A DNA stretch of 64,000 nucleotides from Bifidobacterium sp. GTDB lineage: Bacteria > Actinomycetota > Actinomycetes > Actinomycetales > Bifidobacteriaceae. Position numbers and translations under genes: made by a program. A model generated the notes under the pieces. That model had not been told where the DNA came from, ran no database searches, and worked only from the letters and a program-made list of their open reading frames with translations. Positions 63 to 58,600 of this stretch are shown here, one piece after another (the first letter of the stretch is position 1; the number at the start of each line of letters is the position of its first letter). The stretch spans positions 930,001 through 994,000 of the forward strand of contig NZ_JALCLM010000001.1 in the NCBI RefSeq assembly GCF_022647885.1, in the 5' to 3' direction.

Positions 63-161
63 TTGTGTAGGGATTATCAGATAGTCGGTCACTATAAACA
101 TTGAAAAATCGCCGTATACCAACGCTTACTACTCGCGGTATACGGCGAAATCCCTACACAA
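63..161. repeat. TIR element copy 1 (99 bp)
   Basis: TTGTGTAGGGATT (63-75) is matched by the exact inverse AATCCCTACACAA (149-161). Inside is a second perfect inverted repeat, CGCCGTATACC (110-120) against GGTATACGGCG (137-147), so one strand could fold almost end to end. It lies just 3' of phoU. It is one of six such elements in the window; see copies at 8972, 13628, 29753, 35829 and 58493. There is no transposase gene and no clear target-site duplication. The function is unknown. Confidence 0.8.
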
Positions 162-180
162 ACGTCAAACTGCTAGAAAC

Positions 181-852
181 TCAGTCTGGGTCTTCGCCAC
201 TTGGCTCTTTGCTGGGGTCAAATCCTGAAACTATGTACACAACGCGACGTGCAGCGGACACAGCGTGGTCTCCGAGTCGCTCCATGAAGCGTGCAAGCAG
301 AACCATATCAATCATCTGCTGCTTAGATCCTGACCATTCGTCCGAAAGGGCCAAATCAAAGGTCTGATGATGCAAATTGTCGAGTTTGTCATCATCAACG
401 ATGATCTGTTCGGCAGTTGTGGCATCTTTATCAGCGAGCATAGAGACTAAGCGATCCGCAGTCATATCTAGGAATTGCTGCATCTGAGTAAACAACTCCT
501 GAGTTTCAGGGGGCAGCGTTGGCTGTGGGTAAGTGCGACGAGCAGTTTCGGCGATATGCCTCGCCAAATCGCCCATACGCTCAAAGGTGGCCGAAAGTCT
601 CAACGTAGAAACAATCACACGCAAATCAGTTGCCACAGGACTTTGTTTAGCTAAGAGCCTGATGCATTGATCGATAACGCTGGATTCTAGAGCATCGATT
701 TCAATATCTCCATCGATGACCGTCTGCGCTGCCTCAACATCTGATTTAAGAAGTGCACTGCCTGCGCCGTGGATAGCTCGGCTAACATCCTGTGCCATTC
801 GGTCAAGGTCATCTGCGACCTGTTTCAACTCCTCGTTGAAAATAACGCGCAT
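181..852 (-). CDS. phoU: Phosphate transport system regulator PhoU
   Basis: This 223-residue protein is all-helical with the two repeated PhoU three-helix bundles, roughly residues 10-95 and 115-205. The acidic, metal-binding type helices are visible, for example FERMGDLARHIAET near 110 and FMERLGDHAVSAARRV near 190. PhoU proteins bind the Pst phosphate importer and the phosphate sensor kinase and hold the Pho regulon off when phosphate is plentiful; this is known of the family. The length is normal for actinobacterial PhoU/PhoY. The gene is transcribed away from the SenX3-like sensor gene at 1082, which supports a phosphate-signalling context. No pst genes are in view. Confidence 0.93.
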   Translation of the reverse strand: MRVIFNEELKQVADDLDRMAQDVSRAIHGAGSALLKSDVEAAQTVIDGDIEIDALESSVIDQCIRLLAKQSPVATDLRVIVSTLRLSATFERMGDLARHIAETARRTYPQPTLPPETQELFTQMQQFLDMTADRLVSMLADKDATTAEQIIVDDDKLDNLHHQTFDLALSDEWSGSKQQMIDMVLLARFMERLGDHAVSAARRVVYIVSGFDPSKEPSGEDPD

Positions 853-1081
853 TTTCCGCTACCCTCTCTCGTGACCTGTTACATATCCACGACAAGTCTA
901 TAGGTTATGTACCCCAGAGGCACGCTGGTACCGGAAAAAACACTGCGAGTTAGCTCACTGTTCATACAACGACACCCTCGATTCATGCTGTGCTCGTGCT
1001 AGCTAAGAGTATCCACGGGTACAATGTGTGCACAGACAGATGTCGGTATCGACGGCCAAGAGCGTTCGGAGGCAGACACCT

Positions 1082-2239
1082 ATGAGTTCCTTGGGAACCA
1101 AGCTTCATAGTTTTTTTAGTGCAAGAGGCAACGAGGAGGGATCAGATAGCTTTGATGACATTGACGATTCCACCGCTACACTGCTATCGATGCTTCCCAC
1201 CGCCCCGATTGTTGTAGACAATACCAATGAGGTTGTTCGATCCAATCCTGAGGCATACCGTTTGGGTCTGGTCCGCAATGATGCTGTTATTGAGCCCAAG
1301 GTGCTCGAAGCAATAGAACGAGTGAGAATCTCAGGGGGAAAATATCATCTGGACGTCACCACTGAAACGCCACAAGAATTTCTCAACGAATCAACTGCTG
1401 AAACTAACCGACGAGAGATTAGTGACCGCAGTGCATCCACAACTCACAGTGAGGTATCACGCCCTAACTGGATTCATGTAACTGTTGGTCGCATCAGCGA
1501 CGCCTTTGTTGTGGTGTTGGTCGACGATGTTAGTGAAAGTATCAGATTCTCACAGACTAGAGATGCCTTTATCGAAAATGTTTCTGAGCAGCTGACTAAA
1601 CCAATTCAAGCACTGCAACATTTGGCATTACGACTGGAAAGTGGCCAAGAACCACAAGAGCTCATCGCCAATGACGCTAAGTTACTACGCCAATATTGCT
1701 TGCATTTGGAACACACCATTGCGGATTTAATGCTACTGATTAAAGCACAAGAGAAAGTCGTCCCTAACGACACCAATCGTATTAAGCTCTTGAATCTGGT
1801 ACAAGGCGTCGTAACCTCATTGCAGCCTAGCGCCCAGCAAGCCGCAATACACCTCAATATAGGGGGAGACCCCAAAGTGGCAGTCAATGCAGATGCACAG
1901 CAGATTACCGCGGCAATACATAAATTAATCGAAAATGCTATTGCCTACTCACCTCAGGGTGCTGCTGTCAACGTCGCTGTTGAGACAACCGTAGATGGCA
2001 CACATGCAGTAGTCAGAGTAATCGATCAGGGTAATGGAATTGTCAAAGCGGAACGAGAGCGAATTTTTGAGCGCTTCTATCGAGGCAGCAACCAGAATGA
2101 GCGCACTTCTGATGGAGTCGGTCTCGGTCTAGCAATCGTCAAGCACGTGGCACTGACTCATCACGGTTCTGTAACTGTATGGAGCGCCCCACGGCAAGGC
2201 AGCACATTCAGCCTCATATTGCCCTTAGCCAACGCCTAA
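1082..2239 (+). CDS. SenX3-like sensor kinase lacking the phospho-acceptor His and membrane anchor
   Basis: From the ATG at 1082, nine bases after GGAGG (1068-1072), the product has 385 residues; GTG 1028 is an alternative start. It matches mycobacterial SenX3: a PAS-like part (about 30-165, with VVDN...GLVR), a dimerisation helix region and an ATPase domain with DQGNGI, ERFYRG and GVGLGLAIVKH. SenX3 normally has two N-terminal membrane helices; none is present here. In the H-box, where the family has VSHELKTP, this protein reads VSEQLTKP, so the phosphorylated His is Glu (codon 1586-1588, residue 169). The ATP-binding boxes are intact. It may act as a regulator or phosphatase rather than a kinase, which is inference. 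No response regulator gene is adjacent; phoU is divergent. Confidence 0.85.
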   Translation: MSSLGTKLHSFFSARGNEEGSDSFDDIDDSTATLLSMLPTAPIVVDNTNEVVRSNPEAYRLGLVRNDAVIEPKVLEAIERVRISGGKYHLDVTTETPQEFLNESTAETNRREISDRSASTTHSEVSRPNWIHVTVGRISDAFVVVLVDDVSESIRFSQTRDAFIENVSEQLTKPIQALQHLALRLESGQEPQELIANDAKLLRQYCLHLEHTIADLMLLIKAQEKVVPNDTNRIKLLNLVQGVVTSLQPSAQQAAIHLNIGGDPKVAVNADAQQITAAIHKLIENAIAYSPQGAAVNVAVETTVDGTHAVVRVIDQGNGIVKAERERIFERFYRGSNQNERTSDGVGLGLAIVKHVALTHHGSVTVWSAPRQGSTFSLILPLANA

Positions 2240-2291
2240 GATCAATGTTTTAGCAGCGTCTCAGTGTTTCAACGTCTCGACAAGCGTAGTG

Positions 2292-2546
2292 CTATTCGCC
2301 TAAACGACGGTATTCTTTGCGATTGATACGTTCCCAAATCAGCAACATTAAGCCAATAACCACACCAGATGCGCAAACCAATGCAGGTCCCAGAGGTTCA
2401 ATGTCAGCAAGCCAAAGGCAGACAGTGATAATCAAAGCGAGGGACCACAGACTGGTACCTACGACAAAAACCTTACGCAAATCGACTTGAATCGGTTTCG
2501 GCGACGGTCTGCGTGTCTCTGGCTGAAAGATTGGAGCGAGCCTCAT
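2292..2546 (-). CDS. DUF2530-type small membrane protein
   Basis: An 84-residue protein with a basic N-terminus and two membrane helices (about 29-47 and 53-70), ending in a charged RINRKEYRRLGE tail. Size and layout fit the actinobacterial DUF2530 family, whose function is unknown. It is convergent with the SenX3-like gene and divergent from manA. The start is uncertain because no strong ribosome site is visible. Confidence 0.65.
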   Translation of the reverse strand: MRLAPIFQPETRRPSPKPIQVDLRKVFVVGTSLWSLALIITVCLWLADIEPLGPALVCASGVVIGLMLLIWERINRKEYRRLGE

Positions 2547-2655
2547 ACCAACACCATAGCGCGCAGGGTAACCTTGATTCGAGTTTGTGCATGCGGCCGA
2601 GTGTCGAATACCATACGGTAGAAGCTGTCAAAGACGGATTGCAGAGGGGGACTGG

Positions 2656-4122
2656 GTGTATCGGATTCAGCCAGTACAGAAACCATATGCATGGGGATCT
2701 CTGAATCGTTTGCAGACCATGTTTCACCTCAACGATAACGATAAACCTACTGCGCTCGCAGAGATGTGGTTCAGTGGGCATCGTCAGTCGCCATCAATGC
2801 TGTTATTGCCTGATGGATCTTCTCAGGATGTCCCTGGGGTCATTAGACGACATCCTGAAGAGATGCTTGGGGATAATGCATCGCATCTATTCGGTCCTGT
2901 AATGCCTTACTTATTTAAAATCATTTCGGCGCGTATACCGCTCTCTCTGCAGGTGCACCCTTTGGATTTCCAAGCCCGCGCTGGTTTTAATCGGGAGAAT
3001 GCCCAAGGCATACCTCTAAATGCCCCTGAACGCTCCTTCAAAGACACTTTGGCTAAGAATGAGATGGTGGTAGCGCTTGAGCCTTTCGAAGCAGCTGTGG
3101 GGTTCGCTCCGATTGCTTCACAAATGCGTTTGCTTACTTCTATGCAACACCCACTTGCTCAACGCATGGCATCGATTCTTGCAGGTTCATATGGCTCATA
3201 TGACGATCAATCGCTTAATAACATAGATGACACCGATGAGCTCACCATTGAGCTCATTGATCAGATGATGCCGTTAAGTGCTATTACCTGGCCGGATTCC
3301 AGGAAGCGATTATTTAGGGCGTTCACTGCTGCAATCACGGCTCCAAAGCAGTTTGGGGAAGGCATCGAAGGAGCGTTGGTGGCTTTAGATCAGTCCGCGG
3401 AATTTGCGATGCATGCCGCTATATCTAATGCACTTCAAGCTGCAAGAGCTTTCCCGTCGGATCCCTCGGTCCTGTGCATGTTGATGATGAATCCCGTGTC
3501 GTTAGAAGAGGGAGAATCTGTCTATATTCCTGCTGGTACACCTCACGCCTATATCCACGGTACGGCAGCCGAAATAATGAACAATTCAGATAATGTGTTA
3601 CGGGGAGGTATGACTGCCAAGCACAAGGATATTGGCAATTTGCTGCACAGTCTCAACTGCCAAACAGGTTCACCAATAGACCCGTCAAACACGCCCTTCG
3701 GTTTTTTGTCAAACCAGAATTTGGTGACATACAAGCCACATATTAATGAATTTATGCTGGCTTATGGTCGTGTCGATGACAGCACGCCGTCATGGGCTAT
3801 TGTCGGTCGACTGGTGCGACGCTACGGAGAATTATTGCAACGATTACGACCTCAACCGGTCTTGCGTCAGCGCGTCCAACTACCTAAGAGCGGGCCTAGA
3901 GTGTTGCTGTGTACTGAGGGTGCAATTCAATGCTCCACGTTGACTGAGTCGATGGTGCTGAGTCAAGGGGAAGCAGTGTTTATCCCTGCCTGTGATGGAC
4001 GAGTTGATATTCGTGCTGCCACCGAGACGCTAGAAACTAGACACTCTGATGCAGCAACTGCTGACGAGATATCTCGCTCGAGTTCCAAAGGCTCGTATCT
4101 ACTGGCGTCAACCCCGTTCTAA
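2656..4122 (+). CDS. manA: Mannose-6-phosphate isomerase, class I
   Basis: Interconverts mannose 6-phosphate and fructose 6-phosphate with zinc. I chose GTG 2656 because it follows AGAGGGGG (2643-2650) and begins the family's normal N-terminus (YRIQPVQKPYAWGS); the frame is open further upstream. The product has 488 residues, longer than the usual 390-450. Family motifs are AEMWFSGH (35-42), QVHP with zinc ligands Gln99 and His101, Glu136 in the KNEM segment, and GTPHAY with His297, followed by NNSDNVLRGGMTAKH. All zinc ligands are present. It would feed mannose into the fructose 6-phosphate phosphoketolase route typical of bifidobacteria (family knowledge). It stands alone and divergent from the DUF2530 gene. 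Confidence 0.92.
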   Translation: MYRIQPVQKPYAWGSLNRLQTMFHLNDNDKPTALAEMWFSGHRQSPSMLLLPDGSSQDVPGVIRRHPEEMLGDNASHLFGPVMPYLFKIISARIPLSLQVHPLDFQARAGFNRENAQGIPLNAPERSFKDTLAKNEMVVALEPFEAAVGFAPIASQMRLLTSMQHPLAQRMASILAGSYGSYDDQSLNNIDDTDELTIELIDQMMPLSAITWPDSRKRLFRAFTAAITAPKQFGEGIEGALVALDQSAEFAMHAAISNALQAARAFPSDPSVLCMLMMNPVSLEEGESVYIPAGTPHAYIHGTAAEIMNNSDNVLRGGMTAKHKDIGNLLHSLNCQTGSPIDPSNTPFGFLSNQNLVTYKPHINEFMLAYGRVDDSTPSWAIVGRLVRRYGELLQRLRPQPVLRQRVQLPKSGPRVLLCTEGAIQCSTLTESMVLSQGEAVFIPACDGRVDIRAATETLETRHSDAATADEISRSSSKGSYLLASTPF

Positions 4123-4250
4123 TCCTTCACGATGTCTGTAGTGATTGAGGAATACGGGGATTCGGGGATACTTAGAGCTATCAGAACGATGCGTGCAGCT
4201 GCTCTGTGCTCTCGCAGCTGCCCTTCATATTCGAAGTCTTTCAGTCAGAG

Positions 4251-5393
4251 TTACAGACGCTCGGTGACGTAGTCAATGCACTGCGTAAGCTTTTTCACAT
4301 CATCAGGGTCAACTGATGGAAACACGCCGATACGTAGTTGGTTACGTCCGAGTTTGCGGTAGCCGGCCGTATCAACGATGCCATTGGCTCGCAGTGAACT
4401 AATAATCTCGTCTGCACTAAATTGATCATCGATATCGATGGTGACCACGCTGTTTGAACGTGCGGCAATATCAGTGACGAAGGGTTGCGCAAAAGATGAA
4501 GCCTCAGCCCAACGATACAAATAGTCGGAAGACTCGGTGCAACGTGCCTCAGTCCAGGGCATGCCACCTTGTTCATTCATCCATCTGACCTGCTGGTCCA
4601 TCAAAGCTATCGTGGCTATCGAAGGTGTATTCAGTGTCTGTTCTTTGCGCGAGTTCGAGAGTGCGGTACTCAGTGAGAGAAATGCGGGAATCCAACGATG
4701 AGAACCTGCCTGTTTGGCCTCTGCTTCTACGCGCTCTGCTCTCTCAATGGCATCAGGGGAGAGTACTGCAAACCAAAGCCCTCCATCGGACCCAAAAGCT
4801 TTTTGTGGAGAAAAATAATACACATCAGTTTGTGTGATGTCGATGTGTAAAGCACCTGCGGCACTGGTGCCATCAACGATCGTGAGAGCCCCATTCTCGG
4901 CACTCCCTGGAATCCGTTGAACGGGGGCAGCAACACCTGTTGATGTTTCATTATGAGCCCAGCAATAGACGTCTGCGTCTTCGCAGAAGTCAGGAATCCT
5001 ATATGTACCGGGGTCAGACTCAAAGACGTAAGTCTTGTCGATAAATGGCGTATTGGCAGCTTCTTGAGCGAATTTGCGGCTAAATGATCCATACACGCCA
5101 AAGGCGGGGCGCTGCTCTATAAGACTGGCGCAAACGATATCCCAGAAAGCACTTGCTCCGCCATTACCTAGAGCGATTTCGTAGCCATCGGGCACTGAAA
5201 ACAGTTGGGAAAGACCTTGACGAATTGATGCTACTACTTGGCGTACCGGCTGTTGACGATGTGAGGTTCCTAAGAGCGTATTCCACTCCCCGCTCAGCGC
5301 CTCAATCTGTGCACGTCGTATTTTGCTGGGGCCTGAACCGAATCTTCCATCGTTAGGCAGTAACTCTTCAGGGATTTCCACACTGTTGGTCAT
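4251..5393 (-). CDS. serC: Phosphoserine aminotransferase (actinobacterial type)
   Basis: PLP enzyme of serine synthesis, converting 3-phosphohydroxypyruvate and glutamate to phosphoserine. The sequence opens with the actinobacterial signature DGRFGSGPSK and contains SPQKAFGSDGG, whose Lys (residue 198) would carry PLP. The C-terminal small domain ends with IGVFPSVDPDDV. I prefer the start giving MTNSVEIPEE (380 residues); starts 9-18 bases further upstream are possible, and none has a strong ribosome site. No serA or serB is nearby. Confidence 0.92.
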   Translation of the reverse strand: MTNSVEIPEELLPNDGRFGSGPSKIRRAQIEALSGEWNTLLGTSHRQQPVRQVVASIRQGLSQLFSVPDGYEIALGNGGASAFWDIVCASLIEQRPAFGVYGSFSRKFAQEAANTPFIDKTYVFESDPGTYRIPDFCEDADVYCWAHNETSTGVAAPVQRIPGSAENGALTIVDGTSAAGALHIDITQTDVYYFSPQKAFGSDGGLWFAVLSPDAIERAERVEAEAKQAGSHRWIPAFLSLSTALSNSRKEQTLNTPSIATIALMDQQVRWMNEQGGMPWTEARCTESSDYLYRWAEASSFAQPFVTDIAARSNSVVTIDIDDQFSADEIISSLRANGIVDTAGYRKLGRNQLRIGVFPSVDPDDVKKLTQCIDYVTERL

Positions 5394-5793
5394 ACGCAAC
5401 ACCATATCCACACCGATGGATTCTCAGAGGGCTTACGATGCTTTCAATAGCGTTTTGTTTCAAAGAGCCAAGCACAAATTTCGGGATTATTGGCCTTAAC
5501 TCATGGTGCTGAGTGTTGAATCCGCATGAGAAAGGCAATAATTTCTAAAAATTAGACACACCGAAAAGTATTGAGTGAACGATAGATGTTTACAGAATTT
5601 TTTCTCGAAGGCATCGTCATTGAAATTTCAGGGTTTTCGACGCGAAATAGACCTCATACACGGGATATTTGCCGTTATCTGGACAGCACTCCGTTGGACT
5701 TTCGTAACCGATACGTTGTAATCTGCTTTCTTGTGATGGTTACGTGATGGATTTCACATGTGCCCAAATGTACCTGTACAGGAGATTGTTTAT
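5394..5793. other. Gene-free promoter region, about 400 bp
   Basis: Divergent spacer between serC and the CHAP protein gene. It is AT-rich and must hold promoters for both. I looked for a cyclic-di-AMP riboswitch, known ahead of actinobacterial wall hydrolase genes, and did not see its conserved sequence. No open frame or repeat stands out. AGGAG at 5780-5784 is the ribosome site of the next gene. Confidence 0.4.
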
Positions 5794-6735: not shown

Positions 6736-6902
6736 GTTTCGTATTCTGTATATATGCAGAGTCACACTAGCTATTGCTTTGGTGTTCGTTTATGCGTAGT
6801 TGGGCGTGTCGTGCTGTAGTTCCCGAATTACAGAGCTTCGTCTAATAATTTCGGTGGGCGATAAGCAGTCTTGCAAGATTCATATGCTATTGTGTGGGAT
6901 TG

Positions 6903-7661: not shown

Positions 7662-7692
7662 GTTCTCAAGACCAAATTTAACTGTGCATCTA

Positions 7693-7735
7693 AGCACGTG
7701 TAGACCTTGATTTTCAAGGTTGCGCGTGCTTTTTT
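7693..7735 (+). terminator. Intrinsic terminator after the NlpC/P60 gene
   Basis: AGCACG (7693) pairs with CGTGCT (7725-7730). Inside it ACCTTGA pairs with TCAAGGT, and T6 follows at 7730-7735. This is a classic Rho-independent terminator. Confidence 0.85.
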
Positions 7736-7854
7736 GTACTGTTTTATGCGTATGTATAGCTAAAGCGAGTGTTCTCACTAAGCTTGCCGCGCTATTGTAT
7801 TAAGTGGGTGAATAGCGCTCAGCTGCACTATTCAAAGACCATAGGGAGGTCGTC

Positions 7855-8925
7855 ATGGTGAATGATAAGGCCATACTCGTCGGGGTTGATGGGTCGGATG
7901 CAAGTTATAAAGCTGCATGGTGGGCAGCGAACTATGCTAAGCATGCAGGACTAACGTTACAAATCGTCTGTGCTTATTCTTTGCCAAGTTATGCGGCGGT
8001 GTCATTCGATGCCACCTACACCGCTCTTGGTGATGATAAGGCTGCACATAACGATGCTCAGGAGATATTGTCAAAGGCCAAAGCCATCGCTGATGAACAA
8101 GGCGTGGAAGCCACCACGTTGATTGTTACAGGCGATCCTGCTTCTGTGTTTGTTGAGCTGTCTAGGAACTACAATCTCATTGTGATTGGCAACCGTGGCA
8201 AGGGCGGCTTGGCTGAGCGTCTGTTGGGAACCACCAGTTCGAGTCTTCCCGCATATGCATACTGCCCAATCATCGTGGTGCCATATACCGATGATGACGG
8301 AAAATTGATGCATTTGAACAACACGATTACTAGGGTCGCTGTTGGTTCAGATGAAACGCGTTGGGGTATTAAAGCTTTGGAGATTGCCGCTGCTTTTGCC
8401 AATAGCTGGGGTGCTGAGCTGGACGTTATGCTTGCTGTACCTAGCATCGATGGATTGACGGGTTCAGATTCTGATGAAGAACATGGCATCATGGAATCGT
8501 ATATGGAAGATTTGGATTTGCGAATCAAGCCTTTGCAAAATGCTTATCCTGAACTTCGCATCTTTAAGTCCATTGTTCCTGGATCAGCTGTGCAAGCGTT
8601 AACGAAGGCGAGCCACGAACATGATGTCGTGGTTGTCGGATCTCGTGGTAGAGGTGGCTTTACAGGCTTACTACTCGGTTCCACCAGCCAAGGTTTGTTA
8701 CAACATGCAGTAAGTCCTGTATATGTTGTTCCTCGCAAATATGTTGAGGCATCCGAGTCTGGTAAGACTCCTAATTCGCCTGCAGATGTGCCGATCATGT
8801 CTCTGGAAGAGATTAGTGGAGTACACCAAGTTGATATACCGCCAGCAGATGCTCAGCTTGCTAGAGATATCGACACCATAATCGATCCTCTGCGTCAAGA
8901 TGAGGGTGAGAAGAAACCTGAATAG
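7855..8925 (+). CDS. Tandem universal stress protein (two UspA domains)
   Basis: ATG 7855 is preceded by AGGGAGG. The 356-residue protein holds two Usp folds, about 5-145 and 160-300, with a 55-residue acidic tail. Both domains carry the ATP-binding loop: GNRGKGG...GTTSSSL in the first and GSRGRGG...GSTSQGL in the second, each ending in a VVP strand. Family members bind ATP and help survival of stress; the exact role is unknown. It is a stand-alone gene with its own promoter region after the upstream terminator, and it is convergent with the OsmC gene. Confidence 0.9.
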   Translation: MVNDKAILVGVDGSDASYKAAWWAANYAKHAGLTLQIVCAYSLPSYAAVSFDATYTALGDDKAAHNDAQEILSKAKAIADEQGVEATTLIVTGDPASVFVELSRNYNLIVIGNRGKGGLAERLLGTTSSSLPAYAYCPIIVVPYTDDDGKLMHLNNTITRVAVGSDETRWGIKALEIAAAFANSWGAELDVMLAVPSIDGLTGSDSDEEHGIMESYMEDLDLRIKPLQNAYPELRIFKSIVPGSAVQALTKASHEHDVVVVGSRGRGGFTGLLLGSTSQGLLQHAVSPVYVVPRKYVEASESGKTPNSPADVPIMSLEEISGVHQVDIPPADAQLARDIDTIIDPLRQDEGEKKPE

Positions 8926-8971
8926 CTGCTCGTTCGGGCTATTCGGGGTGCAGTGAGGCATCGAAACTACG

Positions 8972-9093
8972 TTTGTGTAGGGTTTGCCAAGTAGCTTCTG
9001 CGGATGTCAGTGCTGAGATCCTTGCTGTTGCGCCATTTGACGTTCGGCGGCGGGACTGGCTACGGCCCGTTTGAGGAATAATCCCTACACAAA
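8972..9093. repeat. TIR element copy 2 (122 bp)
   Basis: TTTGTGTAGGG (8972-8982) and CCCTACACAAA (9083-9093) are exact inverse arms. The left arm continues TTTGCCAAGTA, closely like the copy at 35829, and the centre holds TTGCGCCATTT (9028-9038), related to the core ATTCCGCCATT of other copies. It lies between the convergent uspA and osmC genes, 3' of both. No gene is inside it. Function unknown. Confidence 0.8.
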
Positions 9094-9152
9094 ACAAAAA
9101 GAGACCGTGGATGCGACGTTAAGAAGCAATTTAACGTCGCATCCACGGTCTC
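9093..9152 (-). terminator. Terminator of the OsmC gene, 22-bp perfect stem
   Basis: Positions 9101-9122 pair without mismatch with 9131-9152 around an eight-base loop. On the minus strand the stem is followed by TTTTTGTTTT, so it ends osmC transcription 25 bases past the stop. It abuts TIR element copy 2. Confidence 0.88.
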
Positions 9153-9176
9153 TGCTGTTGCAGACGGCCGTTTTGT

Positions 9177-9590
9177 TTAGTGGCGGACAGTAACCTGCAT
9201 GCGTACTGGGGTTTCGCGCTCTAAGGTGTGCTTTACCGTGCATGACTTCTCAATGTGGCGAGTCATGCGTTCTTTGAGTTTTTCGGCATCTTCATCGCTG
9301 AGATCAGCATCACTGGCATCAACCGTGACTTGTTCAGTGAAAGCAAGGTATGTATCGTCCTCGGCATCGTAGTTGCCATCAATAACCACGTGGGCACCAG
9401 CACCTTTGCCGAGCACACTTTCAACGGCAAAATTGCTGGACAGTGCTGCACAACCACCGAGAGCGATTTTAATCAAATCGCCAGGTGTGAAGACTCCTTT
9501 ACCTTTGCCGAACTTCAGATGGGCTCCGTCCTCAGAAAAAGCATCCCAAGAACCATCCTTATTGCGTTCAACCCATAGCCTCTTGCCCAT
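9177..9590 (-). CDS. OsmC/Ohr family peroxide-detoxifying protein
   Basis: The start at 9590 is set by GGAGGAGTC directly before ATG; the product then has 137 residues and opens MGKRLWVERNKDGSW. The two redox cysteines of the family are visible in LGGCAALS and KSCTVKHTL. OsmC/Ohr proteins reduce organic hydroperoxides through this cysteine pair, usually with a lipoyl or thiol reductant; this is family knowledge. The central acidic helix (DADLSDEDAEKLKERM) is normal. It is followed by a strong terminator and is monocistronic. Confidence 0.88.
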   Translation of the reverse strand: MGKRLWVERNKDGSWDAFSEDGAHLKFGKGKGVFTPGDLIKIALGGCAALSSNFAVESVLGKGAGAHVVIDGNYDAEDDTYLAFTEQVTVDASDADLSDEDAEKLKERMTRHIEKSCTVKHTLERETPVRMQVTVRH

Positions 9591-9830
9591 GACTCCTCCA
9601 AACTTGTGTGACTCATATCTAGTCATTCACCATGCAGATGTGTCGGTCACATCCTGACTCTTCCAATCTAGTGTCCAACATCGTCAAAAGGAGAATTCTT
9701 CTCACAGCTGCTCGGTTGTTGTAGTATTCGATTCCGATTGAGAGTCAGGGTGCCGTTGAACGTGTGAAAAAGTGATGAGCTGGAGGCTAAGAATCGCTTG
9801 AGTGTCAAAGAATGCGTTAGATTAGACATC

Positions 9831-13627: not shown

Positions 13628-13743
13628 CGTTTGTGTAGGGATTTTCGCTGATAACAGCGGGTTCTCGAATTTTAGATTGGCGGAATCGCGCGGTTTTACG
13701 ACTTTGAAGCAGGGGTGTCTGCAGATAAATCCCTACACAAACG
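13628..13743. repeat. TIR element copy 3 (116 bp), longest perfect arms
   Basis: CGTTTGTGTAGGGATTT (13628-13644) and its exact inverse (13727-13743) give 17-bp arms, the best of the six copies. On the minus strand the centre reads ATTCCGCCAATC (around 13675-13686), related to the core of copies 4 and 5, so this copy lies in the opposite orientation. It is 3' of the tRNA pair and 5' of the gene at 13434. The rest of the roughly 530-bp spacer holds the tRNA terminator and otherwise nothing I can name. Confidence 0.85.
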
Positions 13744-29099: not shown

Positions 29100-29690
29100 A
29101 TGGGTGACGGGATTAAAGCAGTAATGACGGATGTCGTCGATACTGGGATGGGTACCATGCCGAAGGCACGCAACAATCCTGTTGTGCGCATCTATCTCCG
29201 CTTGAGATCAATGCTACTCACCGTTATGGCGTGCATTGGTGTGATATCAATAGTGTTGTTTATAGGAGCGGCGGCGTTTGGATTGCGGCCTATGGTGGTG
29301 ATTTCCGGTTCAATGGAACCGGAAATCACTGTGGGGTCGTTGATTCTCTCTATCGAAACACCGGCTACATCTCTTAAACTGGGAGATGTTATTACTGTCA
29401 GTCGCAGTGGAAGCCAGCGTTTAGTGACTCATAGAATTATCGAAGCAGGCGACTGCGCAGGGGAGCGGTGCTCTTTCATATTGAAGGGTGACGCCAATAT
29501 TGCACGCGACCCTCATCAAGTGCTTATTGAGTCAGCTCCTCGTATGTGGATAGCGCTTTCTGGTATTGGATACGCCATTGTCTGGATGCGTACTTTGCCT
29601 GGGTTGATTACCTTAGCCGTGGTGATTGTGGCACTGATAATGTTGCTAATTATTGTGCCAAAAGATACCAAAAAACCAATAAATAGCTAA
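29100..29690 (+). CDS. sipW: Signal peptidase I, ER/SipW type
   Basis: A 196-residue membrane protein with helices at about 37-58 and 163-188. The catalytic serine is Ser71 in SGSMEP and, as in the archaeal/ER type, a histidine (His111 in LVTHRI) takes the place of the usual Lys. The GD box FILKGDANIARDP follows. In Bacillus, SipW cleaves only TasA, TapA and a few others. Its place at the end of a run of three exported-protein genes argues that they are its substrates. Confidence 0.88.
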   Translation: MGDGIKAVMTDVVDTGMGTMPKARNNPVVRIYLRLRSMLLTVMACIGVISIVLFIGAAAFGLRPMVVISGSMEPEITVGSLILSIETPATSLKLGDVITVSRSGSQRLVTHRIIEAGDCAGERCSFILKGDANIARDPHQVLIESAPRMWIALSGIGYAIVWMRTLPGLITLAVVIVALIMLLIIVPKDTKKPINS

Positions 29691-29752: not shown

Positions 29753-29850
29753 TTGTGTAGGGATTTAGGCGCATATAGTAAGTATCGAGTGCGGAATTCC
29801 GCCATTTTTCAACGCTGATACTTCGGGTAAGCCTAAAAATCCCTACACAA
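29753..29850. repeat. TIR element copy 4 (98 bp)
   Basis: TTGTGTAGGGATT (29753-29765) and AATCCCTACACAA (29838-29850) are exact inverse arms, with TAGGC/GCCTA continuing the pairing. Inside, AGTATC pairs with GATACT, and GCGGAATTCCGC forms a small hairpin that overlaps the core ATTCCGCCATT (29796-29806). It is 3' of both convergent genes. Function unknown. Confidence 0.82.
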
Positions 29851-29872: not shown

Positions 29873-30586
29873 TTACTTAAGCTGCGAATTCGGCGATTCG
29901 ATATATGTGCGCAGCGCACTATCTATGGTGTCAGATTCGTCGCTGTAGCACCCGTAACCACTTGAGCTGCTGCACGAAGGATCACTGTAGTAGTCATAAT
30001 CTGAAGATGCTGCCAAACCTATGCCCCAAATAAGCAATCCCACAAATATCGCAATAATGATTGTGAAGATGCCTCCAACGACTGTTCCGGCAATAGCAAA
30101 ACCATTGCCTCGTTCGCGGGATTTATGTATCTGTACTAAGGCAATAATGGAAATCACTAATCCGGCAGGTGCAAAAACAAAGCAGAGAGCGAAACCAACG
30201 ATCGCCATGACATTCCAAGGTGCATTTTGTGACACCCCATAAGCCTGATTAGGCACATAGTATGGTTGCTGCGGAAAGACTTGTTGACTGTACGATTGCT
30301 GCACATAAGGCTGCTGTGGCTTAGGCGCATACGGATTCTGGTTCGCGTATCGGGGATCATTTGCAGTTTGAGAAGATTGCTGCTGGTACTGCTCTCCGCC
30401 CTGACTGTAATAGGGCTGCGTCGACGGTGCAGACTGTCCATATTGTTGCTGAGGGGCATACGGTGATGGTTCAGGGTTTTCTGGATTCTGAGCCGGTGAG
30501 CCTGGAGTATAGGAACTCTGTCTGTACGAGTCAGACGTCGGCTGCTGCGGCGCATTATCTTGTGGATTGCCAAAATTATCGGTCAT
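29873..30586 (-). CDS. DUF4190-type membrane protein with Pro/Gln-rich cytoplasmic region
   Basis: From ATG 30586 the product (237 residues) opens MTDNFGNPQDNAPQQ. The first 120 residues are low-complexity Gln, Pro, Tyr and Ser. Two membrane helices (about 128-150 and 168-193) frame the DUF4190 hinge IHKSRERGNGFAIAGTVVGG. A short Cys/Ser/Tyr tail follows. The family is widespread in actinobacteria; its function is unknown. Longer starts are unlikely because a strong inverted repeat occupies the upstream region. Confidence 0.72.
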   Translation of the reverse strand: MTDNFGNPQDNAPQQPTSDSYRQSSYTPGSPAQNPENPEPSPYAPQQQYGQSAPSTQPYYSQGGEQYQQQSSQTANDPRYANQNPYAPKPQQPYVQQSYSQQVFPQQPYYVPNQAYGVSQNAPWNVMAIVGFALCFVFAPAGLVISIIALVQIHKSRERGNGFAIAGTVVGGIFTIIIAIFVGLLIWGIGLAASSDYDYYSDPSCSSSSGYGCYSDESDTIDSALRTYIESPNSQLK

Positions 30587-30634
30587 ATGGCAAAGTGTAA
30601 TCGCTCCCACCCGTGTATTGTCTGGGAGAACATC

Positions 30635-30706
30635 AGATAAGTGCATTACCACCGCCGATATTGACAGAAATCTTGTGTTCTATCGGCGATGGTAATGCAC
30701 TTATCT
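30635..30706. terminator. 26-bp inverted repeat downstream of galE
   Basis: 30635-30660 pairs with 30681-30706 with a single mismatch (25 of 26) around a 20-base loop. It lies 34 bases past the galE stop and just upstream of the DUF4190 gene. No T run follows on the minus strand, so termination is likely but the exact type is unclear. Confidence 0.6.
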
Positions 30707-32803: not shown

Positions 32804-32827
32804 AGCCCCACGCATAGTTAAAAAACC

Positions 32828-32896
32828 AAACTGTGCATGTTGACACGTGAGGAAGAAAATATTCACTTCCTCACGTGCCGACATGCACAGTTTTGT
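32828..32896 (+). terminator. Long terminator after trmB
   Basis: AAACTGTGCATGT (32828-32840) pairs with ACATGCACAGTTT (32881-32893), and CACGTGAGGAAG (32844-32855) pairs with CTTCCTCACGTG (32866-32877), separated by a small internal bulge. TTTTGTTG follows. The mirror side has an A run, so it could also work on the other strand. Confidence 0.85.
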
Positions 32897-32995
32897 TGTA
32901 TAGATTGCTGACAGACATTATTGCGTTTGCTTGAATGCACGACGCGACTCACCGGTTTGCCCTAGTCCTATAAATCGCGTATTATGAACTCGTTT

Positions 32996-34265: not shown

Positions 34266-34345
34266 AGCTAAATACACGTCATCAGAGCATCATGCTAATC
34301 ATCGACCTGCCAACGGTAGGTCTGAACAACTATGGAGGATTCGGC

Positions 34346-35566
34346 ATGACAGAGAATGTGTTACAAGACTTTGTTTTCAACAACGGACTACGGTTGAGAA
34401 ATAGAGTGGTTATGAGTCCAATGACCACTATGGCTAGCTTCTACAATGGCATGGTTACACAAGATGAAATCGACTATTACGCGGCTCGAAGTAGTGGCCC
34501 AGGCATGGTTATCACAGGGGTAGCAAATGTCAGCGCAAGCGGTAAAGGATTTGAAGGAGAACTGTCTGTATCGCAGGACTCGATGATTCCAGGTTTGCAA
34601 GAAGTGGCTAACGCCATTAAGAAACATGGTGCGCTTGCGGTCTTACAAATTTTCCATGCTGGAAGGAAATCAAATAGCAGAATTCTCAGGGGCGAACATC
34701 CTAAAAGCGCCAGTGCAGTCGCTGCTGAATATCCGCAGGACTCAGAGATTCCTCAAGAACTGAGTGATAGTGAAATTCGTGAAATAATAGAGGATTTTGC
34801 GCAAGCTACCAGACGCGCCATTGCAGCAGGGTTTGACGGCGTTGAGCTTCATGGTGCTAACACCTACTTATTGCAACAGTTCTTTTCACCGCATTCAAAT
34901 CGTCGACAAGACCGCTGGGGAGGAGATTGTGATAAGCGAATGAATTTTGCTCTGGCGGTCATCTCATCAGTACATAAAGCGATTAGCACATATGCCGCCA
35001 GGCCGTTCTTGCTGGGGTATCGTCTCTCACCTGAGGAAATTGAAACTCCTGGAATACGGTTTCAAGATTCGTTGTATTTTGCTGAACAGATACGCGAACA
35101 TATCGATTATCTCCATTTATCAATGGGTAGCTATCAGCGAAGCTCACTAAACGATACGCAGGATCAAGAGCCATTGCAAGCAAAATTCGCTAGGGTCACC
35201 AAAGGGCATATTCCTCTGATCGGAGTCGGTTCTGTTGAAAGTCTCGAGGACGCCGAGGCGGCGCTTGCAGGTGGCGCAGACTTAGTGGCTTTGGGGCGGG
35301 AATTGCTCCGCGAACCACAATGGGTGCAAAAAATTTCCGCCCATGATTTTGCCAGCATTAGGACAACGATTAGCACCTCCGATATGGCAGAGCTAAGTAT
35401 CCCTCCTGTGATGCGTACTTATCTTCTGACAGCATTCCGGTCGGTAATGCATGTTGCAGATGACGAAATTCCGGCAACCAGAGGCGATATCAGCAGCGCA
35501 GACGAATCCCACGTGCAATACCGACATCAGATGGCACCGATGGAAGGATTTGAAAAAAAATTATGA
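34346..35566 (+). CDS. NADH:flavin oxidoreductase of the old yellow enzyme family
   Basis: ATG 34346 follows GGAGG by seven bases; 406 residues. The FMN-barrel motifs are clear: NRVVMSPMTTMAS near 20, LQIFHAGRKSN near 105, GVELHGANTYLLQQFFSPHSNRRQDRWGG near 175 with the substrate-binding His/Asn pair, and LGRELLREPQW near 320. There is no iron-sulfur domain, so it is a single-domain ene-reductase. Such enzymes reduce activated alkenes or quinones, often in stress defence. The divergent HxlR gene is the likely regulator. Confidence 0.92.
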   Translation: MTENVLQDFVFNNGLRLRNRVVMSPMTTMASFYNGMVTQDEIDYYAARSSGPGMVITGVANVSASGKGFEGELSVSQDSMIPGLQEVANAIKKHGALAVLQIFHAGRKSNSRILRGEHPKSASAVAAEYPQDSEIPQELSDSEIREIIEDFAQATRRAIAAGFDGVELHGANTYLLQQFFSPHSNRRQDRWGGDCDKRMNFALAVISSVHKAISTYAARPFLLGYRLSPEEIETPGIRFQDSLYFAEQIREHIDYLHLSMGSYQRSSLNDTQDQEPLQAKFARVTKGHIPLIGVGSVESLEDAEAALAGGADLVALGRELLREPQWVQKISAHDFASIRTTISTSDMAELSIPPVMRTYLLTAFRSVMHVADDEIPATRGDISSADESHVQYRHQMAPMEGFEKKL

Positions 35567-35828: not shown

Positions 35829-35951
35829 TTGTGTAGTGATTGCCAAGTATAAAGCTATAATTCATTCACGAAAAATGCTGGTATTCCGCCATTCCTGCGT
35901 CCGTAGAGGCAGCGAATACTTCCAGTCTTGTCAATAATCCCTACACAAACG
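35829..35951. repeat. TIR element copy 5 (about 120 bp)
   Basis: The left arm TTGTGTAGTGATT (35829-35841) has one change from the consensus; the right arm AATCCCTACACAA (35936-35948) is perfect and is followed by ACG as in copies 1 and 3. The centre carries ATTCCGCCATT (35883-35893), and TTGCCAAGTA after the left arm matches copy 2. It lies within the 600-bp spacer 35567-36165 between the convergent OYE and DUF308 genes; apart from this element and the hairpin at 36095 I see no gene there. Confidence 0.78.
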
Positions 35952-36094: not shown

Positions 36095-36138
36095 GGTGTT
36101 TTGGCAATTCTCAATATCTTGAGAATTGCCAAAACACC
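36095..36138. terminator. 20-bp perfect hairpin downstream of the DUF308 gene
   Basis: 36095-36114 pairs exactly with 36119-36138 around a four-base loop. It lies 28 bases past the DUF308 stop. There is only a weak T tract on the minus strand, yet stem length and position make a transcript end likely. Confidence 0.7.
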
Positions 36139-36165: not shown

Positions 36166-36678
36166 CTAGAAGGCTGCAGCGAGATATGAGGTACCAGAAA
36201 ACAGGAAGTATGTCCCAACAAGGAAGGCCAAGGTAATCGCTGAAGAAACAGGATTAAATAGCAGAACGATACCTAGAATCACACCTAAAATATTCATGAA
36301 GACATCGAAGCGGTAATAACTCGTGGCTTTAACTTTGTAAACGCTCGAAACGGCCAGCTCAAACAGAGAATCTAGAATGAACCAGATAGCAAAGAGATAG
36401 GGGAGCGCAATAACCCCTACGTTAGCGTTGAATAGTAGAAATATGCCGAGCAGAATATCTACAATGCCGAGTACCAGGATATAGATATTTTTCGCACCGG
36501 TGAAGTCATCAAGCTTTCTTCTGAAAACCAATTCCGATATACCTTTGAGAATCGCCAAAATAGCAAAAACATAAACAATGGCTACCAAATTGCTGGCTGG
36601 ATTGCTGAATGAAATCAGCGCGGTAATGATGAAGAGTATCCCTACAAAGAAATAATCCCAATTAATTTTTCTTGTCAT
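36166..36678 (-). CDS. DUF308 / HdeD-like membrane protein
   Basis: The start at 36678 follows AAGGGAGAAG; 170 residues. Six membrane helices in three hairpins are visible, each with the DUF308 pattern of a short polar turn such as NPASN, NANVG and NPVSS. HdeD in E. coli is linked to acid resistance, but the family is broad and the role here is unknown. Base use is AT-rich. The gene is monocistronic. Confidence 0.85.
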   Translation of the reverse strand: MTRKINWDYFFVGILFIITALISFSNPASNLVAIVYVFAILAILKGISELVFRRKLDDFTGAKNIYILVLGIVDILLGIFLLFNANVGVIALPYLFAIWFILDSLFELAVSSVYKVKATSYYRFDVFMNILGVILGIVLLFNPVSSAITLAFLVGTYFLFSGTSYLAAAF

Positions 36679-36886
36679 ATATATCTTCTCCCTTGGATCT
36701 GTGGATGCGCGTTGACCACGCATACATCGGATTCCTCATCTTCAGTCTAGGCGTAGATGAAGCAACGCATCATCTACGCCTTTGAGTATCTCCATAGGCA
36801 ACAAACAGTCTCAGGCTCACTATTGCTCACAAGTGTTCATTGACCGTTTATGTGAGTTCACCTTTTTATCGATATGAGAGAAAGCA

Positions 36887-48596: not shown

Positions 48597-48605
48597 GTAA
48601 TACGC

Positions 48606-50072: not shown

Positions 50073-50081
50073 GATGACGCC

Positions 50082-53861: not shown

Positions 53862-53880
53862 TATTGGTATAGATCCACAT

Positions 53881-54924: not shown

Positions 54925-55454
54925 AGGCACGTCGTACACCTTGGTGGTATTACCTTATTGCCGCTTTGCTGGGAGCCTTTGCAGGTGCTGGGCTTGTCCG
55001 TCTTACACAAAGTAGTCAAATCAATGTGCTCGGAGCGCCTTGGTTTGTGTCAGCGATGTTAGTGTTAATCGCTGCGATAGTGCTCTATATGGCATGGCAA
55101 GTGCATCTCTATGTCACAGGAAAAAGACGGCAGATGGATGCTACCCGCGCCGTAAACACTTTAGTATTAGCGAAGGCACTTGGTATCGCCGGCGCAGCTC
55201 TATTCGGTTGGTATGGCGGTCAACTACTCATGAGCCTCTCTCACGCAGAAGCCCCCTTTTATGCTGAGGTAATCAAAGAATGTCTGTTTGCTGCAGGAGC
55301 TGCTGTGATTGATATGGTTATCGGCATTATCGCTGAACGGTGGTGTCAGTTGCCACCCAATCAAGGCCCCGAACATCCCAAGGTGAAAGCGGCGCAGCGT
55401 CGAAGTAACGTTGCTAATACTGCCAACAACGAGTGCTCTGAACACCAAAGCTAA
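54921..55454 (+). CDS. DUF3180 membrane protein
   Basis: The start overlaps the preceding stop (ATGA), with GGAGG just upstream. The 177-residue protein has four membrane helices (about 10-28, 40-60, 82-105 and 122-142) and a hydrophilic tail. DUF3180 commonly follows folK in actinobacteria, which supports the identity given to the previous gene. Function unknown. Confidence 0.88.
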   Translation: MKARRTPWWYYLIAALLGAFAGAGLVRLTQSSQINVLGAPWFVSAMLVLIAAIVLYMAWQVHLYVTGKRRQMDATRAVNTLVLAKALGIAGAALFGWYGGQLLMSLSHAEAPFYAEVIKECLFAAGAAVIDMVIGIIAERWCQLPPNQGPEHPKVKAAQRRSNVANTANNECSEHQS

Positions 55455-55487
55455 CATCAATATCTTGGTGTCTCGCTAGACGAAAGC

Positions 55488-55544
55488 GCATAGTGCGATA
55501 CAGATAGCCCTCAAATCGAAGGTGCTACCGATACCGCACTATGC
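55488..55544. terminator. Bidirectional transcript-end hairpin
   Basis: GCATAGTGCG (55488-55497) pairs exactly with CGCACTATGC (55535-55544). It lies between the convergent DUF3180 and tesB genes. The loop is 37 bases and has weaker inner pairing. Confidence 0.6.
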
Positions 55545-55580
55545 AGCTTATTGCTAAGACTCGAAAAGTTGAGATTATAT

Positions 55581-56486
55581 TCAGGATTGTGGTACCCGAA
55601 TCATTGCTTCCTGCGCCATTGCTGCCACTAATACACCGTCTTGGGAATACACCTTGGATTGGCTAAGACCACGACCGTGAGCTGCCGTAGGTGTGTCTTG
55701 CACATACAGATGCCACTGACTCATATCGACATCTCGATACCACCACATGGAGTGATCAAGTGAAGCATATGAGATTCCTGGCGTCGTCATACTCAATCCT
55801 GCTCTACGTAGAACAGGTTCCATCATAATTTGGTCACACCCCAGTGCGAGCATGGCACGATTCATCATCTGCGACACCTCAGCGGTACCGTCGGTACGCA
55901 TCCACACCATCTGCTTGCCGGAGTCGTGAGACACTGCATGCTTGTCAACACCTAGGAGGATTGAGGGAGTGACGTGACGAATTTCAAAGGGAGATTTTGT
56001 CGCGTAATAATGTGCAAATTGCGATTTATCGGCATACGGCGCCATGAGTTCTTTAGCACTGGGTAAGCCCTCAGGATCTGGAATATTCTCAGGCATAGGA
56101 TCCGCGAATTCGACACCCTCTTGATCGGGAATCTGGAAGCTAGTGATAGCTGTAAGAATCGTCCCTTCAGACTGCGTGGCATTGACCCTACGTGCAGAGA
56201 ACGAACGACCATCACGCAAATTCTCAACATCGAAGAGTACATCTTGATGAATATCGCCTGCTGTTACAAAATATCCGTGAATCGAGTGGGGAAGACGGCC
56301 TTCTGGCACTGTTTTTCCAGCGGCAATAACCGATTGCGCAATGACCTGGCCGCCGTATACCCGACCAGTGGGGAAGAATAAACTTTCCCCATTCACATAT
56401 GTGTGACTACGATATGCTGACGGTTCACCGAGTTCCAACACCTTGACTAAATGCTCCAGAGGAGTCATCGTATCCGTATTTGGCAT
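55581..56486 (-). CDS. tesB: Acyl-CoA thioesterase II
   Basis: Hydrolyses fatty acyl-CoA. AAGGGG precedes ATG 56486; 301 residues, with the double-hotdog fold. The family landmarks are RVYGGQVIAQSV near 42, HGYFVTAGD near 70 and SLDHSMWWYRD near 240, whose Asp is catalytic. Bifidobacteria have little beta-oxidation, so its role may be fatty-acid supply or detoxification (inference). It is monocistronic. Confidence 0.93.
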   Translation of the reverse strand: MPNTDTMTPLEHLVKVLELGEPSAYRSHTYVNGESLFFPTGRVYGGQVIAQSVIAAGKTVPEGRLPHSIHGYFVTAGDIHQDVLFDVENLRDGRSFSARRVNATQSEGTILTAITSFQIPDQEGVEFADPMPENIPDPEGLPSAKELMAPYADKSQFAHYYATKSPFEIRHVTPSILLGVDKHAVSHDSGKQMVWMRTDGTAEVSQMMNRAMLALGCDQIMMEPVLRRAGLSMTTPGISYASLDHSMWWYRDVDMSQWHLYVQDTPTAAHGRGLSQSKVYSQDGVLVAAMAQEAMIRVPQS

Positions 56487-56675
56487 AGTTCCCCTTCATG
56501 TTTCTTCATCAGTACCGTTCATGAGCTTATCTAGCATGATCAGCTCATGAGTTCTGCTGAACAGTCTAACGGCAGGAGGTAAAAAGCTCTCCTCGTTTTG
56601 TAACGAAAAGATGCAGATAGGTAAACGTAGGATGACGAGTCGGCTACCTAAGAGTGGCCGACTCGTCGACATAAG

Positions 56676-58352
56676 CTACCGACGAAGCTTGCGATGCAAG
56701 CGGTGAGGTTTTGAAGCCTCTTCACCTAGACGACTCACTTTGTTTTCCTGATACGCCTGGAAATTACCTTCGAACCAATACCAGTTGGCAGGGTCCTCAT
56801 CAGTGCCTTCCCAAGCGAGAATATGGGTGCAAATACGGTCAAGGAACCAACGATCGTGGGAGATTACCACAGCGCAGCCAGGGAAGCCTAGCAAAGCATT
56901 TTCCAAACTTTCCAAGGTTTCTACATCAAGATCGTTAGTAGGCTCATCGAGTAAAAGCAGGTTGCCACCCTGCTTAAGTGTTAATGCAAGATTCAAACGA
57001 TTACGTTCACCACCAGACAACACGCCTGCAGGCTTCTGCTGATCTGAACCTTTGAAACCAAAGCTGGCCACGTATGCTCGAGTGGGTACTTCTACACCGG
57101 CTACTTCCATAAAATCAAGGCCGTCGGAGACGACTTCCCACAAAGTCTTGTCAGGATCAATGCCTTCACGATTCTGATCCACATAAGAAATTTTTACCGT
57201 ATCGCCAATCTCTAATGTGCCGCTGGTAATGTCTTCAAGACCGACGATGGTTTTAAACAGCGTAGATTTACCGACGCCGTTAGGACCAATCACACCAACA
57301 ATACCGTTTCGGGGCAAAGTGAAACTCAAATCATCGATGAGTACGCGATCGCCGAAAGCCTTATGAATATGATCAGCTTCCAATACTTTGGATCCCAGTC
57401 GTGGCCCCGGTGGAATCTGCACTTCAGAGAAGTCCAGTTTCTTGTTCTGACGCGCATCTGATTCCATTTGCTCGTAGCGTTCAAGACGAGCCTTGTTCTT
57501 TGCCTGTCGTGCCTTGGGGGAGCTGCGTACCCAGTCTAGTTCTGAGTTCAGTCGCTTAGAAAGTTTGGCATCTTTTTGACCTTGGACTTCAAGACGCTTG
57601 GCTTTAGTTTCCAAATAGGTGGTGTAGTTGCCTTGGTACGGATACAGATGGCCGCGGTCTACCTCACAGATCCACTCAGCAACATTGTCGAGGAAGTACC
57701 TATCGTGAGTCACTGCAAGCACAGCGCCTTTGTATGTGTGTAGGAACTGCTCAAGCCATAATATTGATTCGGCATCCAAATGGTTAGTTGGCTCGTCGAG
57801 AAGCAACAGGTCAGGGGCCTCAAGCAGCAACTTACATAGGGCTACTCGGCGACGCTCCCCACCGGAAAGTACCGTAACTGGAGTATCGGAGTCGGGGCAT
57901 TGCAACGCATCCATGGCTTGCTCAAGTTGACTATCAAGATCCCAAGCATCAGCGGCATCGATCTGCTCCTGCAAGGTACCCATTTCAGCCATAAGCTTGT
58001 CAAAATCAGCATTAGGGTCGGCCATTTCCTCACCGATGGCATTAAAACGTCTAATCTTGGCTTTCATTTCACCGAAAGCCTGCTCAATATTTTCGCCAAC
58101 GGTTTTATCTTCATCAAGCGGCGGCTCCTGTTGAAGAATCCCCACAGAATACCCTGGGGAGAGTTGTGCTTCGCCGTTCGAAACGGTATCAAGGCCCGCC
58201 ATGATCTTCAGCAAAGTTGACTTACCCATGCCGTTAGGGCCAACCACGCCGATTTTGGCTCCTGGAATGAAACTTAGTGTTACGTCGTCGAGGATTACTC
58301 GATCGCCGAATGCCTTGCGCGCTTTGATCATTTGGTAGATGAAATCAGCCAA
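56676..58352 (-). CDS. ettA: Energy-dependent translational throttle protein EttA (ABC-F)
   Basis: A TTG start at 58352, five bases after AGGA, gives 558 residues. There are two ATPase domains without membrane segments: GPNGMGKST (about 37-45), LSGGERRRVALC, DEPTNHLDAES, and GPNGVGKST (about 354-362), LSGGERNRLNLAL, DEPTNDLDVET. The basic linker between them (VQGQKDAKLSKRLNSELDWVRSSPKARQAKNKARL) is the P-site tRNA-interaction motif of ABC-F proteins. EttA gates elongation at the ribosome E site according to ATP level. The length and motifs match EttA closely. Confidence 0.95.
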   Translation of the reverse strand: MADFIYQMIKARKAFGDRVILDDVTLSFIPGAKIGVVGPNGMGKSTLLKIMAGLDTVSNGEAQLSPGYSVGILQQEPPLDEDKTVGENIEQAFGEMKAKIRRFNAIGEEMADPNADFDKLMAEMGTLQEQIDAADAWDLDSQLEQAMDALQCPDSDTPVTVLSGGERRRVALCKLLLEAPDLLLLDEPTNHLDAESILWLEQFLHTYKGAVLAVTHDRYFLDNVAEWICEVDRGHLYPYQGNYTTYLETKAKRLEVQGQKDAKLSKRLNSELDWVRSSPKARQAKNKARLERYEQMESDARQNKKLDFSEVQIPPGPRLGSKVLEADHIHKAFGDRVLIDDLSFTLPRNGIVGVIGPNGVGKSTLFKTIVGLEDITSGTLEIGDTVKISYVDQNREGIDPDKTLWEVVSDGLDFMEVAGVEVPTRAYVASFGFKGSDQQKPAGVLSGGERNRLNLALTLKQGGNLLLLDEPTNDLDVETLESLENALLGFPGCAVVISHDRWFLDRICTHILAWEGTDEDPANWYWFEGNFQAYQENKVSRLGEEASKPHRLHRKLRR

Positions 58353-58492
58353 CTTGTTCCTGCTCTCACATTGCTTGTTCTTGATTGTTTGTGCGATTGA
58401 TTTCCCTATAACAATCAGGTCTTAAATATCCGCTACAGCTTAGCTGAAATACTTGACTGCTGCATGGTTGCAGTTGTACTCGAGATATCCGT

Positions 58493-58600
58493 TTCTGTAG
58501 GGATTTCTATGCTAACTCAATGTATCAATTTTTCGCATCCTTGGAATCTCAACGATCTCAAGAAAGAAAACAACGTAGCTAACAAACAATCCCTACACAA
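58493..58600. repeat. TIR element copy 6 (108 bp)
   Basis: The left arm TTCTGTAGGGATT (58493-58505) has one change; the right arm AATCCCTACACAA (58588-58600) is exact. The central core seen in copies 2-5 is not clear here. It lies in the 316-bp spacer 58353-58668 downstream of prmC and upstream of ettA (both minus strand). No gene is visible in that spacer. Confidence 0.75.

Follow-up and report, generated by a model that had tools for sequence, protein, structure and literature searches.

Intergenic elements of Bifidobacterium with paired inverted arms at helical-turn spacing: probable sites of a putative DNA-binding protein

A stretch of 64,000 nucleotides from Bifidobacterium sp. (positions 930001-994000 of the single-contig, 2.34 Mb source genome G000, and called the window throughout) contains six short intergenic elements, each bounded by conserved inverted arms around a diverged interior. 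The question raised by this locus is what kind of element keeps its ends and not its interior. A preliminary description had offered a structured RNA, a protein-bound site, or a very old group of miniature inverted-repeat transposable elements (MITEs) kept by selection on their ends. We observed many copies across the genome, with lengths that step by about one helical turn, and these elements are probably double-stranded DNA nucleoprotein sites of a putative sequence-specific protein, neither structured RNA nor ordinary MITEs. The protein-bound site was thus the best fitting of the earlier readings, while palindromy and pair counts left the structured RNA unsupported.

All six arm pairs were present in the window, with the right arm (AATCCCTACACAA) exact in each and a single change in the left arms of copies 2, 5 and 6, as had been described. 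Four of the earlier intervals match, while those of copies 2 and 3 were too wide by 2 to 6 bases and are given here from arm to arm:

63-161: element 1 (99 bp, no change in either arm), separated by 19 bp from the 3' end of a minus-strand phoU-like gene (181-852)
8973-9092: element 2 (120 bp, left arm with a single change), in the spacer of a convergent usp-like gene (7855-8925) and osmC-like gene (9177-9626, minus strand)
13631-13740: element 3 (110 bp, no change in either arm)
29753-29850: element 4 (98 bp, no change in either arm), between convergent open reading frames (ORFs) at 29100-29690 (plus strand) and 29873-30652 (minus strand)
35829-35948: element 5 (120 bp, left arm with a single change), between convergent ORFs at 34292-35566 (plus strand) and 36166-36723 (minus strand)
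58493-58600: element 6 (108 bp, left arm with a single change), in the spacer of two minus-strand ORFs

The divergence of the interiors was also borne out; they are not featureless, since AT blocks and a common core are present. With up to three mismatches allowed, the window contained 31 matches to the 13-nucleotide arm where 15.4 were expected, and none of 100 shuffles reached 31. A chance origin of the arm pairs was ruled out by these shuffles and by reversed-pattern controls across the genome.

Further copies, which the preliminary description proposed to seek genome-wide, were plentiful. With at most one mismatch the arm matched the whole of G000 105 times forward and 104 times in reverse (reversed pattern, 1 and 0), and a second genome of the genus (G016) 74 and 75 times on the two strands. 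The other 25 of the 27 genus genomes gave 0-2 matches per strand, as did their reversed-pattern controls, leaving arm-pair elements in G000 and G016 only; the search was keyed to one dialect of the arm, and other dialects are possible in the remaining 25. Fetched stretches yielded 97 inverted pairs from G000 and 56 from G016, to which 12 more from G016 were added later. About a quarter of G000 was read in this way, in stretches fetched around its own elements, while the window itself was sampled independently of them.

The lengths of these pairs fell into discrete classes with no intermediates. The 97 elements of G000 measured 88 bp (2), 98-99 bp (17), 108-110 bp (69) or 119-121 bp (9), and the 56 of G016 measured 88 bp (1), 97-98 bp (10), 107-111 bp (41) or 119-121 bp (4), which places the arm centres about 7 to 11 whole helical turns apart. 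With a turn of 10.6 bp, the arm centres of all 153 pairs lay on average 0.05 turn (sd 0.07) from whole turns; with 10.5 bp the mean offset was 0.13. The fit leaves the period broad, with a strength of 0.89-0.93 across 10.4-11.2 bp and a best value near 11, and the Rayleigh p-values for it presume independent copies and are not to be taken literally. Three everted pairs, with arms pointing outward, were also observed in G000 at spacings of 116, 116 and 74 bp, likewise near whole turns, and their G016 orthologs had the same three spacings, the last with a three-mismatch arm. The 116-bp pairs lie at:

G000 C1:353494-353622 and C1:573942-574070: everted pairs, each adjoining a hairpin
G016 C1:235402-235530 and C1:442963-443091: their orthologs, each adjoining a hairpin

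As regards an autonomous partner with the same ends, arms left unpaired in the fetched stretches belonged to everted pairs or were lone arms with one mismatch.

Conservation was measured on 39 checked orthologous pairs, chosen by flank mapping from the 56 collected G016 elements. Arm identity was 0.957, with fully identical arms in 12 pairs, a value that is partly ascertained because the elements were found through their arms. Interior identity was 0.542 against 0.491 for random pairs, and that of the 30-nt flanks 0.519 against 0.455. Beyond the arms, conservation continued outward into CGT (C 0.89, G 0.75-0.83, T 0.75-0.76). Free of the assumption of independent copies, the length-class test gave the same class in 35 of the 39 pairs where 22.3 were expected, with none of 20000 shuffles as high, and the four changes were of 9, 10, 10 and 13 bp. 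Arm pairs of this kind should not survive at the divergence between G000 and G016 without constraint. An early estimate had put the shared sites at about 42 of the 46 that could be mapped; it was discarded as biased, the G000 stretches having been fetched around their own elements.

Between the arms, AT was enriched near positions 12-15, 21-23, 31-33, 45-47 and 54-55 from either end, in steps of 8-14 bp, and the centres carried variants of a GGCGGAATTCCGCC-like core. G000 copies of similar length (differing by at most 2 bp) shared an interior identity of 0.52 +/- 0.05, with one pair above 0.7. A structured RNA or a bidirectional terminator might be expected behind genes, where these elements lie and where terminator-like sites are commoner than in other spacers; moreover, each of the six copies in the window gave a better fold than its shuffles (z -2.3 to -7.6), to a good extent through the arms, and perfect inner palindromes of 12-21 bp occur in 13 of the 153 copies (at most 7 bp in 459 shuffles). 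Palindromy, however, was the same within an element as between elements (0.381 and 0.388 in G000, 0.363 and 0.355 in G016). The covariation check that had been proposed also went against a paired structure, for when 69 copies were aligned over the arm helix, 28 of the 32 changed cells broke the pair and 2 were compensatory. The four matches that an Rfam scan of the window returned at the gathering score all lay outside the six elements, and steps of a helical turn are unexpected for an RNA loop. We regard an RNA or terminator as very improbable.

The paired-arm pattern matched 7 of 189 genomes of the family, including G000 and G016, and this search exposed arrays of 19-bp iterons facing a core in a second genus-level group (g5), which we guess is also Bifidobacterium in the wide sense. 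Arm and iteron letters are common to the two groups and patchily distributed. The palindromic core was found with at most two mismatches in 28 of the 189 genomes and tandem 19-bp iterons, by a degenerate pattern, in 12; the controls (reversed for the core) found none. We listed 79 iteron clusters in stretches of 13 genomes and measured facing distances without preset lengths. The distance between nearest facing iterons was 51-52 or 61-63 bp in 57 of the clusters and, in 16 more, one of these values with a further 19-bp iteron added (70-71 or 81 bp); the remainder comprised three at 32 bp, one at 89 bp and two with no value. The core thus steps by about one turn and the iterons by 19 bp.

The iterons are written in dialects: TGTAGGGA in G055, G074, G079, G087, G092 and G107, TGCGGTAA or TGCGGTGA in G043, G076, G115 and G137, and AGCGGTGA in G056 and G108. 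Different dialects were observed at loci where both flanking genes are homologous (G076/G107 and G055/G108/G137). Core identity was 0.67-0.71 in the three both-flank-matched comparisons of G055, G108 and G137, over a background of 0.55 +/- 0.10, and 0.53-0.79 over ten comparable pairs, most with one flank matched. Such loci suggest, and do not prove, a switch of dialect in place. Shared positions across the two genus-level groups were few, no more than a rough, uncomputed estimate of chance, and we do not claim them. As a separate observation, the core occurs in G122, G124 and G128 (L219-L221) at one common locus between AAGTCGGTAGATAGG arms, where no 19-bp iterons were seen.

The genes around the elements were taken from ORFs called by a simple script. 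Forty-two of the 97 G000 elements lay in convergent, 47 in co-directional and 6 in divergent spacers (2 unassigned), and the median distance to a 3' end, taken over the two genomes together, was 36 bp. In stretches chosen around elements, convergent and divergent spacers numbered 39 and 5 with an element against 43 and 59 without in G000 (p = 8e-8), and 26 and 4 against 25 and 31 in G016 (p = 2e-4).

For a nucleoprotein site, these features may be brought together as follows. A putative protein would bind two copies of the 16-bp recognition sequence CGTTTGTGTAGGGATT from the same side of the helix, and the intervening DNA would be bent or wrapped, aided by the AT blocks about a turn apart and the central AAATGGCGGAATTCCGCCATTT-related core. 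Whole-turn spacing of the arms in either orientation is what would be selected by a complex that bridges or wraps about 75-120 bp, and we propose that the lengths are quantised because steps of about one full helical turn are the only ones the spacing tolerates. Relatives carry the same architecture with 19-bp iteron arrays flanking the core, and dialects would arise as protein specificity drifts and the sites follow. A transcriptional or topological barrier behind genes is, taken alone, a tentative suggestion. Equally speculative is the fuller picture, in which bifidobacteria would hold genome-wide architectural sites behind genes, where a putative protein clamps the arms in register about a bendable core, with an insulator-like effect, a core and geometry that stay constant between species, and dialects that co-evolve with the reader protein.

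Several observations weigh against this nucleoprotein reading, in addition to the ascertainment of the arms given above. Sites turn over: of the six elements in the window, only two were matched by a counterpart in G016, element 1 at C2:220998 (98 bp, mapped by the right flank) and element 2 at C2:230108 (121 bp). The 27 kb of G016 spanning the places of elements 3-5 showed no counterpart (3 mapped by both flanks, 4 and 5 through the right one alone), element 6 was missing from the orthologous G016 spacer, which is shorter and was mapped by both flanks, and one G016 element had no counterpart in the window. No convincing partner protein emerged from the neighbours of large arrays, inspected by eye, or from ten window neighbours. 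GntR-aminotransferase genes (MocR-type, by Pfam) adjoining elements in G055 and G074 were considered as a partner and found unconvincing. Dialects mix occasionally, with one TGCGGTGA iteron in G055, and few loci stand behind the switch in place. Along the chromosome the spacing of elements was random, with a coefficient of variation of 0.98 against 0.98 for random placement and a largest element-free gap of 145 kb, inside the random range; this gives no hint of domains, and the marking of chromosome domains was ruled out by it. Terminator-like sites occurred at 12 of 119 G000 3' ends with an element and 10 of 243 without (p 0.03), and at 11 of 70 and 5 of 147 in G016 (p 0.004), in both cases with element spacers being the longer. 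Finally, behind fas-acpS (Pfam) G000 has an element after a terminator-like hairpin where G016 and G024 have the hairpin alone, and this presence of both indicates that the element is no simple terminator replacement. Such replacement had been hinted at by eye at two sites and was contradicted by fas-acpS and by the terminator scan. Behind fas in G017 (L310) we also observed by eye an inverted repeat of about 120 bp with arms of about 34 bp (GAGATTGTGAGTTTTGCGGCAATTGCGAAGTATAA), possibly another element family.

The strongest rival is a slowly mobile, non-autonomous element akin to REPINs, which are inverted doublets of repetitive extragenic palindromic (REP) sequences. In such a system a transposase acting in trans would need both ends in helical register for synapsis, the interior would drift and copies would be retained or lost in a mostly neutral way. 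An enzyme needing ends in register would account for geometry and turnover alike. Presence and absence in relatives is as this predicts (four of the six window sites, fas-acpS in G000 and not in G016 or G024, and G055 against G087). Between G055 and the close species G087, one element was gone together with its surroundings (215 against 34 bp) and a second had shrunk, by eye, to a short inverted remnant of the outer iterons. At the places of window elements in Bifidobacterium psychraerophilum, the closest named relative of G000 (84% identity in one protein search), a 24-kb locus (L025) held no element in the arm-pair scan; element 3 had no counterpart there or in G016 (both flanks mapped), and a plain hairpin stood at the place of element 4. 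Near-identical copies were observed as an inverted pair in G000 (1180818/1190325, 0.94) and as a direct pair (C1:133551/137458, 0.96) and an inverted pair (C2:55126/75266, 0.85) in G016. Together, presence or absence and near-identical copies indicate that elements come and go and that copying between them happens. The patchy distribution, and letters shared between two genus-level groups, fit mobility as well.

On the other side, the 39 shared sites retain their arms while their interiors are near background, which is unlike neutral leftovers. No target-site duplication was seen by eye at the copies inspected, where flanks had diverged and the element-less G087 site was not clean. The Y1/RAYT transposase (PF01797), the only transposase family searched, was found in none of the 27 genus genomes, with a control finding it in 5 of 14 named genomes. 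One iteron array, searched among phage and plasmid records, had no match there, nor did the tandem TGTAGGGA pattern among viral contigs; one viral match to the paired arms (L185) was judged by eye to be a different repeat. We consider a REPIN-type element unlikely on balance, though well ahead of the other alternatives. The very old MITE group of the preliminary description may still apply: gain and loss and the few near-identical pairs agree with it, but target duplications were not seen and no transposase of the one family searched was found.

Recombination sites for the entry and exit of gene cassettes were suggested by a single case among the compared loci. In G016 a 4-kb cassette of LacI, sugar-transport and GH32 genes (Pfam; L125:13552-17566, C1:133551-137565) lies between two near-identical direct copies, and at this place G000 carries a single element without the cassette. 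Recombination of two identical copies by the usual homologous route would suffice for this, and 39 elements are shared at matching flanks in both species; we therefore hold cassette sites to be highly improbable. In the second copy beside the cassette the central palindrome appeared flipped by eye.

The elements were compared with several known systems. Iteron arrays of plasmid origins and centromeres consist of direct iterons of about 19 bp beside an AT-rich or palindromic core, as in the relatives, whereas here copies are many and chromosomal and the iterons face each other across the core; no Rep or Par genes were recognised in the few element neighbourhoods inspected. Bacterial interspersed mosaic elements (BIMEs) and the gyrase- and IHF-bound repeats of enterobacteria are protein-bound DNA behind genes, often between convergent genes. 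Our elements are likewise behind genes, often in convergent spacers and probably protein-bound; unlike BIMEs, they have no REP palindromes and carry invariant arms of 13-16 bp. Sites such as matS, Noc sites and parS are likewise chromosomal, sequence-specific and multi-copy, but each is one short site, in contrast to the present pairs of sites in helical register about a core, which showed no positional zone. MITEs are similar in being short and intergenic, with inverted ends and tens of copies gained and lost, and differ in that our elements share no common interior, target duplications were not seen by eye and no transposase is known to match them. REPINs are dispersed in extragenic DNA, have invariant 16-bp ends and a spacer, and have been proposed to co-evolve with a trans factor (Bertels and Rainey 2011, PMC3116915). 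The present elements share the extragenic position, the paired inverted 16-bp conserved ends and the variable spacer; they differ in lacking hairpin conservation, a palindromic REP unit and any RAYT found in the genus, in lengths that step by a helical turn, and in the tandem 19-bp iterons and common core of relatives. In open-access papers, searched also for bifidobacterial repeat families, we found neither arms nor iterons described.

Many sites that differ by about whole helical turns form a clean natural experiment, and the species dialects should point to the reader protein through co-variation. An architectural reader would make the elements a further level of chromosome organisation in a major gut genus; a transposase-like enzyme in that role would make them a REPIN-like system on double-stranded, helically phased DNA.

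Other repeats and features were observed along the way. G087 (L285, about 4625-4740) carries a palindromic repeat distinct from the elements and some 114 bp long, GGCTCCCCTC...GAGGGGAGCC, which occurs at many places in G055, G087 and G092 and matches the genomes of G055 and G087 dozens of times. The window also contains near-perfect long inverted repeats at 32819-32902, 30635-30706, 9100-9153 and 36095-36138, the last two of which come after elements 2 and 5, respectively. An L31-Actinobacteria ribosomal protein leader (Rfam RF03158) lies at 61149-61194 of the window.

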